The notes under the pieces are model-generated. The model ran no database searches. It was not told the DNA's origin and saw only the letters and a list, made by a program, of their open reading frames with translations. From the NCBI RefSeq assembly GCF_004341395.1, contig NZ_SLXT01000006.1, forward strand, positions 1-64,000: a stretch of 64,000 nucleotides of DNA, given 5' to 3'. The DNA comes from Heliophilum fasciatum (GTDB taxonomy: Bacteria; Bacillota; Desulfitobacteriia; Heliobacteriales; Heliobacteriaceae). Below are positions 9,479-15,970 of this stretch, piece by piece (the first letter of the stretch is position 1; every line of letters begins with the position of its first letter). The translations under genes and the position numbers were made by a program.

Positions 9479-9568
9479 GGAGAGATGGCCGAGCGGTTGA
9501 AGGCGGCGGTCTTGAAAACCGTTGAACTCGTGAGGGTTCCGTGGGTTCGAATCCCACTCTCTCCGCCA
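9479..9568 (+). tRNA. tRNA-Ser (UGA)
   Basis: A 90-nt type II tRNA with a long variable arm. The acceptor GGAGAGA pairs with TCTCTCC, followed by discriminator G and an encoded CCA. The anticodon loop CTTGAAA gives anticodon TGA at 9513-9515, reading UCA. The T arm is GGGTTCGAATCCC. Confidence 0.97.
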
Positions 9569-10051: not shown

Positions 10052-10147
10052 TGATGACGGGAGAGTTGCTGGGAGCATGCCCTTTTGTTTTAAGGCATGG
10101 TGAAACCAAAAAAGCTGAGTAAAAGAGCTGCATAAAGGGCCACAAAA

Positions 10148-10194
10148 AAGAAACCGTTCGCCTTATTATTAAGAGCAACGGTTTCATTCTTTTT
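10148..10194. terminator. Bidirectional terminator
   Basis: GAAACCGTT at 10150-10158 pairs with AACGGTTTC at 10177-10185. A-rich sequence on the left and T-rich sequence on the right allow it to act on both strands: for the small gene on the left and for the former minus-strand chemoreceptor gene on the right. Confidence 0.75.
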
Positions 10195-10303
10195 GACCTA
10201 ATTTCTTACTTGGCAGTGACTGCTTAAGCTGGCCGAGCATGTCGAGTACTTCGGTAGACAGTTGCTTGATTTCCACCAACCTGACGAAAATGGCCATGGG
10301 GGA
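10184..10303 (-). pseudogene. Remnant of a chemoreceptor gene 3' end (CZB domain)
   Basis: Reading the minus strand gives HGHFRQV then LVEIKQLSTEVLDMLGQLKQS and a short tail to a stop at 10184. This matches the last part of the intact chemoreceptor at 14570-15970 (GHLDVFRQL ... [20 protein letters not shown]). Compared at DNA level, the copy lacks about 66 bases between the two blocks and 9 more inside the first (LDV missing). Only about 40 codons survive, without methyl-accepting or sensor parts, so it is a relic of a second, paralogous chemoreceptor. Confidence 0.75.
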
Positions 10304-10331
10304 CATCAAAGAAAAAATGGGAGGTATTGAG

Positions 10332-11108
10332 ATGACCAGCAAGACATTAACACAGGATGTCATGAAAGCAGACGTGAGAAAAAAAGCCGATCAAGGGTGT
10401 TATCTTCGCAGTGTTCGGTTCCGGCGAGATGAAGTGCCTTCTTTTTCCGAATATCCCTTTTCGTTGCCGGCGGTTTGCAGGTTAACAGAGATAAGGCTTC
10501 ACCCGAAAGTTACCTTTTTGGTCGGTGAAAACGGCACAGGAAAATCAACGCTCTTGGAGGCGATCGCCGTTGCTGCGGGTTTTAACCCGGAAGGCGGCAC
10601 GAGGAATTTTAATTTTTCGACGAAGGATTCCCATTCGGAGCTGCATCGTTATTTGACGATCGTCCGTACGTATAAAAAGCCAGTTGACGGGTTCTTTTTA
10701 CGGGCGGAGAGCTTTTATAACTTGGCAACGAAGATTGATGAGCTTGCGGTGGCTTCCTCCTATGGCAACCGATCGCTTCATGAGCAATCGCACGGCGAAG
10801 CTTTTTGGGCGACGATGATGAACCGGTGTAAGGGACGTGGCCTTTACCTCCTCGATGAACCGGAAGCGGCCCTTTCGCCCAGTCGTCAGATGGCGATGGT
10901 AGCACGTATTCATGAACTAGTTCAGCAGGATTCTCAATTGGTGATCGCTACCCACTCGCCGATCATCATGGCTTATCCCGATGCGATGATCTTGCAGTTT
11001 TCCGAAGAGGGCGTGGAAGTGGTGGAGTATGAGGAGACGGAACATTACCGGGTAACCCGAGAATTTATGATCAATCGAAAAAAAATGTTGGATATTTTGT
11101 TGGAGTAG
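10332..11108 (+). CDS. AAA family ATPase (predicted, SMC/ABC-like)
   Basis: A 258-residue soluble ATPase of the compact COG3910-like kind. Walker A is GENGTGKSTLLEA (about residue 65), a signature-like region precedes the Walker B GLYLLDEPEAALSP, and the switch histidine is in IATHSPIIMA. The ATG at 10332 has GGGAGG 8 nt upstream. It lacks a coiled coil or nuclease domain and has no partner gene next to it. It lies between a decayed chemoreceptor copy and a dead istB. The cellular role of this family is unclear; some members sit in mobile or defence regions. Confidence 0.85.
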   Translation: MTSKTLTQDVMKADVRKKADQGCYLRSVRFRRDEVPSFSEYPFSLPAVCRLTEIRLHPKVTFLVGENGTGKSTLLEAIAVAAGFNPEGGTRNFNFSTKDSHSELHRYLTIVRTYKKPVDGFFLRAESFYNLATKIDELAVASSYGNRSLHEQSHGEAFWATMMNRCKGRGLYLLDEPEAALSPSRQMAMVARIHELVQQDSQLVIATHSPIIMAYPDAMILQFSEEGVEVVEYEETEHYRVTREFMINRKKMLDILLE

Positions 11109-11270: not shown

Positions 11271-12145
11271 ATGAACACAAACCGAGAACTGACAAAGTAT
11301 AGCCTCTCCTTCATTGGTGACGGACTCTTTCACCAAGAGTCCGTCACCGTCGCCCGACTGTACTTGGAAACAGCCAATTGGGCCGAGTTCTATCAGCACA
11401 TCCCGAAGGATAACTGTTTACAGGTAAGGACAATGCGCTTTGGGATGATTGTGGATCACGAATGGGGAAAGCGACGCTCCAATAAGTTGAAAAAGCTGAT
11501 CCGAACGGCAGCGTTTCGGTGTCCCAATGCCTGTATGGAGGATATTGAGTACCACGAGGACAGAAAACTGAACAAATCACAGTTATTGCAGTTCTCCACC
11601 TGCCGCTATATCCATGATGGTCATCATCTTATTATTGAGGGGCCATCGGGAAATGGAAAAACCTTCTTGGCTTGTGCCCTTGGTAATGCGGCCTGCCGGA
11701 ACTTCATGACCGTTCGCTATGACGACTTCCGGAACTGCTCAACGACCTTGTTGTTGCAAGAGGTGAGGGCACATATAAAAAGATCATAAAAACCTACTAG
11801 AAGGTTGACCTGCTGATTCTCGATGAATGGCTATTAAAGCCATTAACGACCGATCAGGCCATGGATCTGTTTGAGATCATCGAAGCTCGAACGCGAAAGG
11901 GTGCGATGATTTTCAGTACTCAGTTTGATCCCAGAGGATGGTATGATCGCATCGGAACGCCAGAAGATGGTACTGTATCGGAGGCCATCATTGACCGAAT
12001 TAAGCACAATGCGTATGAAATACTCATCGACGGAAAAGTATCCATGCGTGAGCGCCATGGCTTAAACTCGAATAAGTCGGGAGATAAAGTGACTCTTTCA
12101 CTCCGAAATACTCACATTGAACTCGAAACCTTTTTTGTGAAATAA
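11271..12145 (+). pseudogene. istB: Disrupted IS21-family helper ATPase istB
   Basis: The pieces spell an IstB/DnaC-like helper: RFGMIVDHEW..RRSNKLKKLIR, CPNACMEDIEYHEDRKLNKSQ, Walker A IIEGPSGNGKTFLACALG, then, in another frame, LPELLN..VARGEGTYKKIIK and [13 protein letters not shown], and finally [20 protein letters not shown] one-base loss near 11724 shifts the frame, and TAG at 11798-11800 replaces a codon that is normally Gln or Lys in KTYxKVDLL. The N-terminal 50 residues also deviate from the family. No istA transposase is present. The element is inactive. Confidence 0.9.
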
Positions 12146-12334: not shown

Positions 12335-12943
12335 TTATGTGCATTTTCTGTTATTATCATTGCATTTTACCCCCAAATCCTTGCATAGATTTTTAAGTTC
12401 AGGGCAAATATTATTCATTATTAATTTGATATCTAAAGAGTCTACAAACCCCCTTGTAGAACCTTTAATGTAGACTTTACCACCTTTTTTAAACAAAGTT
12501 TCAATGGTTTTTGTCCCACCGTTTTTAGAAACTTTAGTACCCTTTGACAAATTTAAATAATGGAGTATGCCTCCTTCGTCTAATAAAAACCAATCTTCGA
12601 TTGATCGTTTTGCTTTAATATGGAAGATTTTTTTAGCGCCCCAAGCCTTTAAATCTTTTTCGACCTCTGACCAGTTCACTATTGGCTTGGTAGAATATTC
12701 AAAGACATCCGTGTCGTAACATAAAAATACAGTAAAACTCACACCTGGATTCTGACGAATTATTTCTTGAAAAATCCGTTTTATCGTAGTTTTATAGTTT
12801 CCGATACCTTTAAGATTTTTTAATATCAGAGTGTCAACCTTGAATCTCTGTTGAGGTATATAGGAACGGATTTGATCGCGCAATTTTGCATAGAATTCCA
12901 TTTCCGAATAACCCTCTACGAATATCACGATCCCCCTACTCAT
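12335..12943 (-). CDS. TOPRIM-like protein (RloB/DUF4276-type partner of the ATPase)
   Basis: A 202-residue protein. It opens with IVIFVEGYSEMEFYAKL, the acidic strand-loop of TOPRIM-like nucleases, followed by FLCYDTDVFEY, a plausible DxD strand, and AKRSIEDWFLLD, which resembles the conserved F-E-x-W-L-L segment of RloB-like proteins. The ATG at 12943 overlaps the end of the ATPase gene (CATGAGTAG), so the two are translationally coupled; TTGGAG lies about 9 nt upstream. The gene is much richer in A and T than its surroundings. ATPase plus TOPRIM pairs act in anti-phage defence (OLD, PARIS, RloAB/AbiL). Family assignment is by motif only. Confidence 0.6.
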   Translation of the reverse strand: MSRGIVIFVEGYSEMEFYAKLRDQIRSYIPQQRFKVDTLILKNLKGIGNYKTTIKRIFQEIIRQNPGVSFTVFLCYDTDVFEYSTKPIVNWSEVEKDLKAWGAKKIFHIKAKRSIEDWFLLDEGGILHYLNLSKGTKVSKNGGTKTIETLFKKGGKVYIKGSTRGFVDSLDIKLIMNNICPELKNLCKDLGVKCNDNNRKCT

Positions 12944-14234
12944 GATTTTCAAACTCCAAATACTTCTCAAGTATTTTCATATCATCTTCGGTACCACTAA
13001 TTAATTCAAATAGGTAATCGCCAGTTGACATTTCTAAGTTTGAAGCATCATCAAATAGAAATTTCTGGGCGGATTTGCGTATTTTGGCGAATTGTGCTAC
13101 ACCATAGGGTTTGGGTAATCCAACATAAATGTTTTGCGGCTCAAGATATTGAATAATATAAGGCGAATGACTTGTAATAATTATTTTGGTATCTCCTAGT
13201 AATTGTGAAAGGACCCTTAGATAATTTTGAAGTAAGCTTGGATGAATGGAATTTTCAGGTTCTTCAACTGCAATTAAAGATAGGTTATTCAAATCTGCTA
13301 TTACTATATTCGTTAATAACAAAAAAACACGCTTTGCTCCGTCAGACATGGCTTCGAAGCTAATAGGTTGATTAAGGTTATTATCAATAACATAAAGTGC
13401 ATATATTTTATTGTCTAATTTAAATGGGATATCATCTGGGATTTTGCTTTGAAATTTATTTTGGATATCTATTTCTTCTACGATGAGTTCTGTTATCTGA
13501 GGGAAAAGTTGTGTATATGCGTTTATGAGTAGATTGTATTTTTCGCTATATTGTTTTTTTAGATGGTAGATTACCCTTGGTAAATTATTCACCCCCTCCA
13601 TTTCCAACACATCAATGTCTTTTCTGATGATTGGGTCAGGTGTATATGATTGACTAGCATCGAGATGACGCTCAATATAAACCTTTAAGCTATTAATTCC
13701 TTTTATGACATCATGATAATATAAGTTTTCAAAAGCCTTCAATTTGTTTATAATAAGATCGTTGTTGTCTATCGATATCTTAGTGTTGCATCTTCCTGTT
13801 TCGGAACTGCGATAAAATGCTTTATCTTCATCTCTATTAATTAAAATATTAAACTTCTGATTTTTTCCTTCGATTTTTATTTTTAGCCATTCACCTATGA
13901 TGTTAGCGCCGGTTTCGTCGCTTCTTATCCACCTGAATTGATATCCGTATATTATATTGTATACTTTATTGTTCAAAGAGGTTGTCATTTCAAATTCTAT
14001 ACGAAAGTCTTTGGAAGCAGTGCCCTTGTTCAGAGGAATTCCTTTTGTCCAGGACATCATTTTTTTCTTTGTATTCTCATTACTTGATATAAAGTCAACC
14101 CCAAAGTCAATAGCTTGAAGTAAATTTGATTTACCATAGCTATTTAGAGAAACTAGTGCAACCATTTCGGTGCAAATAACTTTGGACCTTTGTATATTCC
14201 GAAATCCTTCGACGGATACGCTGCAAAGCCTCAT
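12936..14234 (-). CDS. AAA/ABC-type ATPase, RecF/OLD-like, of a two-gene module
   Basis: A 432-residue P-loop ATPase. The N-terminus MRLCSVSVEGFRNIQRSKV is the usual OLD/RecF beginning. The P-loop reads VALVSLNSYGKSNLLQAI: the GKS core is intact but the first Gly of GxxxxGKS is Ser. A signature-like FEAMSDGAKRVFLLL, Walker B LSLIAVEEPENSIHP and switch ITSHSPYI follow. ATG 14234 is preferred because GGAG lies 8 nt upstream and the frame fits; the longer form to 14306 has no better site. It overlaps the TOPRIM-like gene by 8 nt. Low G+C suggests horizontal gain. A sensor/gate ATPase of a defence pair is the likely role. Confidence 0.8.
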   Translation of the reverse strand: MRLCSVSVEGFRNIQRSKVICTEMVALVSLNSYGKSNLLQAIDFGVDFISSNENTKKKMMSWTKGIPLNKGTASKDFRIEFEMTTSLNNKVYNIIYGYQFRWIRSDETGANIIGEWLKIKIEGKNQKFNILINRDEDKAFYRSSETGRCNTKISIDNNDLIINKLKAFENLYYHDVIKGINSLKVYIERHLDASQSYTPDPIIRKDIDVLEMEGVNNLPRVIYHLKKQYSEKYNLLINAYTQLFPQITELIVEEIDIQNKFQSKIPDDIPFKLDNKIYALYVIDNNLNQPISFEAMSDGAKRVFLLLTNIVIADLNNLSLIAVEEPENSIHPSLLQNYLRVLSQLLGDTKIIITSHSPYIIQYLEPQNIYVGLPKPYGVAQFAKIRKSAQKFLFDDASNLEMSTGDYLFELISGTEDDMKILEKYLEFENHE

Positions 14235-14569
14235 GATTCCACTCCGTCCTTTCGCCTGTGGAAGAATTTTTAATATCATCATAGCACTACAACTCCTAAA
14301 GTGCAATTATTTATTTCATTTATATGATATTATTGGCGCGAAAAGACTTTTTTATTTAATGAAACGAAAAAAAATATTTCGTTTCTCCTGGGGGGTCTGC
14401 GTGGACGTTTCAATTTGGTAGGAAGGGTTGAGAGATTAGATACAATTTATCGAAGCACGGTACAAAAAAACCGTTGGCAGCTCTACGCAAGAAGGCCAAC
14501 GGTTTCTTTTTTATGTTCTATATTTTTCAAGTAGTAGCTGCATCGATCGGAGCGAGAAGGCTATGATCC
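14235..14569. other. AT-rich intergenic region
   Basis: It holds the leader and promoter of the ATPase pair and the terminator of the chemoreceptor at 14468-14510. AT-rich sequence at 14300-14390 probably contains the minus-strand promoter, but no clear -35/-10 pair was settled. No gene is seen. Confidence 0.5.
14468..14510 (-). terminator. Terminator of the CZB chemoreceptor gene
   Basis: AAACCGTTGGC at 14468-14478 pairs perfectly with GCCAACGGTTT at 14494-14504; on the minus strand a T-run follows. Its core ACCGTT/AACGGT recurs in the terminator beside the chemoreceptor remnant at 10150-10185. Confidence 0.88.
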
Positions 14570-15970
14570 CTACACTGCCCCTTTAAGCTGATCAAGCATG
14601 GCCAGCACTTCTTTGGACAACCGTTCGATTTCCACCAGTTTTTGCTTGGCTTGCTCATGGTTGCCCTTGCGATAGAGGCCAATCGCTTCATAACAGGCCT
14701 GGTGAAAGCGGGCATGGGGGCCGTCAAGCTGACGAAATACATCGAGATGGCCAAATGTGTTTTGGCCGCTGCTGAAATACCAATTGCCCAGCCGGCAGCT
14801 ATGGTGATCTTTTGCTTTTTCCTCGTCGGGACTCACGATACCCTTGAGCATATAGCCGATGCGGGCCTTCCAAAGCAAGTGATCTGTTTTGGCCAAATCG
14901 ATCACTTCTTGTGGCGTAAAGGGCACCTTATAAGCGCTGATCTGAGCACGTACACCGTCTGCTTCCGCGATAACGTTGTACAGATTTTTATTGCAGGACT
15001 GCATATTTTTATTGATCAGTGCAGCGTCTTGGGAGATTTCGGTGAGGGTAGCGCTCAGTTCTTCAAAGGAAGCCGATTGTTGTTCGGCAATCGGGGCCAG
15101 GTGGCTTACGGATTGATCAATCACCGAAAAAACATCCAGCAGATGATGAACGCTGGTGGTCGCTTGCTCCGAAGCCTGAATACTGCTCGTGGAGGAGCGT
15201 TGCAGGGCCTGAATTCCCTCGCCAATCTGGTCGACTTCCTGGCGTATTGAGGTGACTTGTCCGGTAATCTCAGTGACAGACTCGCGGGTACGGTCGGCCA
15301 GGGCACGCACTTCTTCGGCGACCACACCAAAGCCGCGACCATGCGCACCGGCCCGGGCGGCCTCTATGGCGGCGTTTAAGGCCAGCAAATTGGTTTGATC
15401 GGCCACTTCGCGCACGACGGTAACCAGCCCGCTGATCTTGCCGGTGGCTTGTTCCAACTCGGCCATGCGTTCATGGAGTGTCAATAGCAACTGCTTGGTT
15501 TTTTGATTTTCGCTGGCCACAAGCTGGAGCCGGGTTTCTGTATCGGCCGTCGATTGATAGCCTTCCATCGATTGCGTGGCCGTCGTGCTGGCCGTTTCGG
15601 CAATGCCGGTGACGGAGGTGGCCAGTTCCTGTGTAGCTGCGGAAATCTCTTGAATACCGGCAGTTTGATGGGCAAAACGTCCGGACAACTGATCGAGGTG
15701 CTCACCTTCTTGCAGTGCCGAAGATACCAGGGTGGTCATGTCCACGGAAAGCTTGGCAATTAACTGCGTGGCAAAATCCAAGATCCGGTTGATTGCTCCG
15801 GCGAGCGGGGCAAGTGATGGATCGGCGGGAATCGTTACCCGTGCGGTCATATCGCCGGCGAGGAATTTTTCAATATCTTTTTGCATAGGGGATGTGGCCG
15901 GGCGCACCGTTTCCGTGACGACGACGGGAGCAGCGGGACGTGAATTTTCTCGATTCGAAAAAAAGCCCAT
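14570..15970 (-). CDS. Soluble methyl-accepting chemotaxis protein with C-terminal CZB domain
   Basis: A 466-residue chemoreceptor with no transmembrane helix, so cytoplasmic. After a short N-terminal linker (residues 1-70, HAMP-like region) comes the coiled-coil signalling domain with the conserved tip [30 protein letters not shown] (about 190-235). The C-terminus is a chemoreceptor zinc-binding domain: DHLLWKARI, a Cys in SCRLGNWY, and HARFH provide the 3-His/1-Cys zinc set. ATG 15970 has CGGAGG upstream. CZB receptors respond to zinc and to oxidants such as hypochlorite. A decayed copy of its 3' end lies at 10184-10303. Confidence 0.95.

Follow-up and report, generated by a model that had tools for sequence, protein, structure and literature searches.

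In PARIS, an assembly of the ATPase AriA sequesters the TOPRIM protein AriB until a phage protein frees it, and the released AriB dimerises and cuts tRNA, probably by a two-metal mechanism (PMC12409363, PMC11455837). TOPRIM_OLD proteins with AAA partners, including an RloB-type pair from Clostridium algidicarnis, act as toxins that are neutralised by their ATPase (PMC10440598). This RloB-type NetFlax pair was tested as toxin and neutraliser, and a role in defence was merely proposed (PMC10440598). Class 5 OLD proteins illustrate that the ATPase family can also have non-defence roles (PMC12796447). Further pairs of an ATPase with a small TOPRIM-type protein are known as AbiL (AbiLi/AbiLii) of Lactococcus, as RloAB, as HEC-01, a candidate system in PADLOC, and as DUF4276 (PF14103) pairs; our literature search found no paper mentioning DUF4276.

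The gene pair described here lies in a window of 64 kb, the whole stretch of DNA that was analysed, and comprises the following features:

12936-14234, minus strand: gene for an OLD/RecF-type ABC ATPase (P0002), 432 aa, starting with ATG at 14234
12335-12943, minus strand: gene for a small RloB/DUF4276-type TOPRIM protein (P0001), the proposed nuclease effector, 202 aa, starting with ATG
12936-12943, minus strand: overlap of the two genes, 8 nt (ATGAGTAG), indicative of translational coupling

Both open reading frames are present and overlap as the sequence-only reading had described, and the translational coupling that it proposed gains support from conservation of exactly the same 8-nt overlap in 26 of the 41 relative loci checked. 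The end of the ATPase gene had to be corrected, as 14306 is merely the first start codon (TTG) in the open frame; the ATG at 14234 is the conserved start, at which the homologues begin too. The G+C profile of the window, which averages 50.6%, reaches practically its minimum over 1.9 kb at the pair (33.2%), in agreement with the AT-richness noted at first inspection. Promoter and terminator scans at the pair yielded nothing above chance.

On its own, the small protein reaches no curated family cut-off. It scored 12.4 bits (E 0.18) against RloB (PF13707), for which the curated cut-off is 31.5 bits, and some of its relatives reach 2e-6. Among the PADLOC profiles it matched HEC-01B with E 0.026 and AbiLii with 4e-4, and a search with the single sequence gave no match to DUF4276. 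Among 46 relatives, profile matches at E<=0.1 were obtained to DUF4276 in 36, to OLD-like_TOPRIM in 34 and to RloB in 12 cases, the best at about 1e-5 to 1e-6, and HEC-01B was matched by relatives down to 1e-6. In comparisons by hhalign, the small-protein family aligned with DUF4276 over 169 columns (94.6%, E 7e-8) and with RloB at 77% (E 2e-5); the comparison with DUF4435 was negative (0.2%, E 0.29, 12 columns), as was the SerRS control. Of the three families that the sequence-only reading had named, the protein thus groups with DUF4276 and RloB and not with DUF4435.

The FVEG and YDTD motifs that had first suggested a TOPRIM-type protein are present, and E10, D77 and D79, together with E116, D117, D122 and K160, are invariant in 46/46 relatives. 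The segment SIEDWFLLD is likewise present, but its earlier interpretation as an anomaly does not hold, because IEDWFLLD aligns with a motif shared in the superfamily, LESWFFGD in DUF4276 and FELWFLLHF in RloB. The AF2 model of the small protein (pLDDT 87.4, pTM 0.84) has the element order β1-α-β2-α-β3-α-β4-α with E10 after β1 and the DxD after β3, in accordance with the strand order and acidic positions of TOPRIM domains. When the model was used in Foldseek searches of PDB and BFVD, which were run without a positive control, no TOPRIM structure was recovered among the top matches; the best of these weak non-TOPRIM hits, which were left out of the functional argument, had an E of 0.016. The expected TOPRIM core is therefore reflected in element order and acidic residues and not in a structural match, and the fold assignment rests on profiles, strand order and invariant residues. 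On these grounds, the small protein can be assigned to the TOPRIM-type RloB/DUF4276 superfamily.

The larger protein was confirmed as an OLD/RecF-like ATPase by profile matches to AAA_21 (1.4e-19) and AAA_15 (9e-17) and by its AF2 model (pLDDT 87.6), for which the top solved structures in Foldseek were retron/Septu PtuA, Rad50 and SMC heads. Its closest PADLOC profiles are HEC-01A (5e-27), AbiLi (3e-24) and AriA (4e-21). Walker A (SLNSYGKSN), signature (MSDGAKR), Walker B (VEEPEN) and switch (TSHSPY) motifs are all recognisable, and 33/33 aligned ATPases keep GK[ST]N of Walker A, the S-x-G signature, the H-S switch and, in Walker B, E-E-x-E. At the first glycine position of Walker A (residue 29), however, 30 of these 33 proteins have Ser or Ala instead.

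The adjacent arrangement of an ATPase gene followed by a gene for a small TOPRIM-type partner is the layout of HEC-01 and AbiL. The window pair shares with the HEC-01/DUF4276 pairs also the overlapping starts, whereas its small protein has invariants of its own (IEDWFLxD and YxKG). It resembles AbiL and RloAB in combining an ATPase with an RloB-type partner, but the small protein stays below the curated cut-off for RloB and carries IEDWFLxD in place of FELWxLLHF. The NetFlax pair AAA(D29):TOPRIM_OLD/RloB(D44) from Clostridium algidicarnis (PMC10440598) is similar by its description as a clostridial RloB-type TOPRIM toxin neutralised by an ATPase. PARIS likewise has separate ATPase and TOPRIM genes, and the AriA-type profile matches the ATPase; however, the small protein has 202 aa compared to approximately 290 aa in the DUF4435 relatives found here. 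Membership in PARIS was rejected, since the hhalign comparison with DUF4435 (AriB) was negative and the AriB profile matched 1/46 members, at 0.028. PtuA of Septu and retrons and GajA of Gabija share the ATPase superfamily and gave the best Foldseek and PDB sequence matches. PtuA has an HNH partner protein, whereas the partner in the window is a separate small TOPRIM-type protein; Septu was rejected because this partner is of RloB/DUF4276 type without a match to an HNH family. In GajA the TOPRIM is fused to the ATPase and the partner is a helicase, unlike the window, where the TOPRIM-type protein is encoded by a separate gene; OLD classes 1 and 2 (Gabija) were rejected because in the window, as in every paired relative, ATPase and small protein are two gene products and not one polypeptide. 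The originally proposed match to known ATPase/TOPRIM defence systems therefore stands for AbiL and RloAB and fails for PARIS, and the suspected distinct subtype is borne out at the level of a subfamily. In the best reading, the pair represents a divergent branch of an already known type of system, similar to AbiL, HEC-01 and RloAB, and does not found a new type.

Relatives were found in 7/398 genomes of a phylum sample and at 53 loci, mostly from Clostridia, in an alignment-based scan of genomes partly shared with that sample; further loci were from Ruminobacter, Chitinophaga and one viral contig. The 53 loci were obtained only with the alignment, as scanning the genome contigs with the single small-protein sequence gave nothing, and tblastn of the small protein against plasmid and phage records was negative as well. 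The ATPase gene is located directly upstream of the small gene in 57/60 relative loci, the three unpaired ones being two contig ends and one divergent Chitinophaga protein, and independently found DUF4276 loci have the same order, ATPase first and small gene second. In one genus, 3/12 genomes have the pair, of which one is cut short and one is split by a transposase gene. The nearest relatives are only about 60-72% identical to the window pair, which remains open. The distribution is patchy and partly mobile, and the pair is a real, intact and horizontally spread two-gene module.

Decay was counted where neither gene runs off the contig. In seven loci (L013, L015, L063, L065, L068, L069, L153) the small gene is broken while the ATPase gene is intact, and in an eighth (L056) the small gene is truncated late. 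Both genes are broken in two loci (L054, L062), and we found none in which the ATPase gene alone is broken. Random single hits would favour the ATPase gene because it is about 2x longer. Counting the two cases from one genus once, decay was one-sided in 6/6 cases, which has a chance of about 0.001 in a post hoc estimate; part of the frameshifts seen in metagenome assemblies may be artefacts, and the bias from seeding the search on the small protein opposes this result. If the small protein is a costly effector and the ATPase is harmless or neutralises it, decay would be expected to take this one-sided form. In L153 (2915-5443), a transposase gene, IS110-type as judged by sequence, splits the small gene between codons ~88 and ~92 and leaves the ATPase frame open; in genome G211 (L015) the small gene is cut near this split point. 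Purifying selection is indicated by dN/dS values of about 0.24 and 0.16 between L017 and L070, the only comparison used because dS is saturated when the window pair is compared with its nearest relatives.

The pair is probably an ATPase-TOPRIM abortive-infection module of the AbiL/HEC-01/RloAB kind. In the mechanism that we infer, comprising complex, trigger, nuclease activity, substrate and phage protection, translation of the ATPase would be followed by that of the small protein, which initiates at the overlapping start codon, and an assembly of the ATPase would probably keep the small protein inactive. A phage signal may then alter the ATPase so that the small protein is released or activated as a putative two-metal TOPRIM nuclease. 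This nuclease would cut an essential nucleic acid, for which tRNA, by analogy to PARIS AriB, is the likeliest single guess, and the cleavage would abort the infection.

A separate ATPase-TOPRIM immunity subtype that differs in trigger and nucleic-acid target, and is in one lineage under two-component control or sensing, is conceivable, but we regard it as rather doubtful. In another genus (two genomes, G316 and G359; L003/L011 and L004/L059), the pair is directly followed by a response regulator gene of OmpR type and then by an ORF of the size expected for a kinase. A response regulator 3' of the pair is confined to this genus and represents a steadier context, which counts against a defence function. 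The genes in these loci adjoin each other or overlap by 4 nt, and the ATPases are shorter (362-364 aa).

Alternatively, the pair could be a toxin-antitoxin or addiction pair of mobile elements, in which the ATPase neutralises a TOPRIM nuclease, cells that lose the element die and anti-phage activity is absent or incidental. One-sided decay of the small gene would be compatible with such a function, as would the location of one relative on a plasmid (L053) and of another in a prophage setting, behind a phage endolysin gene (L070), and it was indeed as a toxin with its neutraliser that the NetFlax RloB-type pair was discovered and tested (PMC10440598). However, the ABC ATPase is large, its signature, Walker B and switch motifs are intact, and it resembles a sensor and not a simple antitoxin; PARIS and AbiL, to which the pair is related, are genuine defence systems, and some of the neighbours are defence genes, so that we consider an addiction pair unlikely. 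The 199 neighbour genes of the relatives, a raw list without matched background, include type I RM, AbiE, Thoeris, CBASS, AbiLi, integrases and transposases; the majority are non-defence genes, and a search of this list for a conserved third gene gave no candidate. In L017, an amidase gene is found upstream of the pair. The neighbours vary between patchy sites that are partly mobile or rich in defence genes, which agrees with the variable-island setting that had been anticipated. L028 (1792-3710) carries, ~5 kb away from the pair and on the opposite strand, a second, distantly similar ATPase gene whose partner ORF encodes 212 aa.

In the window, the pair is part of a variable island with the following features:

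9479-9568, plus strand: tRNA-Ser(UGA), directly after serS, at the left edge of the island
10239-11108, strand opposite to the pair: further ATPase ORF upstream, left outside the module
11271-11432, plus strand: N-terminal stub of BrxA (BREX; PF08849, E 3.1e-7), in frame with the istB relic
11433-12145, plus strand: disrupted IS21 istB helper, split between the C-terminal part of the ORF 11271-11789 and a second ORF, 11861-12145
14570-15970: chemotaxis gene bounding the island on the right

An Rfam scan found the tRNA alone. The dead IS21 helper reported beside the pair was confirmed, with istB broken into 11271-11789 and 11861-12145, and the first of these ORFs turned out to be a chimera, of which the first ~54 codons encode the BrxA N-terminus and the remainder istB from profile position 32. 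The match of the stub to PF08849 exceeds the curated cut-off. Membership in BREX was rejected, since a search of the genome found neither a second BrxA nor PglZ, and for the same reason the brxA stub counts as a relic that does not act together with the pair. The island formerly housed a defence gene, as the stub shows. A second copy of 14480-14640, consisting of the 3' tail of the chemotaxis gene (~20 codons, 70% identical) and the terminator region, is present at 10141-10282; the duplicated tail thus flanks the island at its opposite end, which looks like the loss of a paralogue or the insertion of the island beside it.

In seven loci from sister genera, the serS side is conserved and neither the pair nor other island genes follow downstream, with some of these regions being short or at contig edges. 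Absence of the AT-rich island from sister loci argues, like the rarity and patchiness of the pair in the phylum and, with two of three copies broken, in the genus surveyed, against a DNA repair or housekeeping ATPase-TOPRIM complex (RecF/RecR-like or Cran1-like) unrelated to phages. We consider such a complex very improbable, despite the resemblance of the ATPase to RecF, Rad50 and SMC and the fixed two-component neighbour in one genus. Least probable of all is a decayed, non-functional remnant like the adjoining brxA-istB relic, which the relic neighbours and the chance-level promoter and terminator scans might suggest, because neither frame is truncated, every family-invariant residue is in place, and both frames are open at such a distance from their nearest relatives.

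ATPase-TOPRIM pairs other than PARIS and Gabija have been catalogued, and experimental work on them is sparse. The subfamily to which the window pair belongs is spread through gut and sediment Clostridia, and its small subunit can be missed in annotation because it scores under the curated profile cut-offs. One-sided decay provides a pointer, obtained from sequence alone, to the small gene as the toxic effector.
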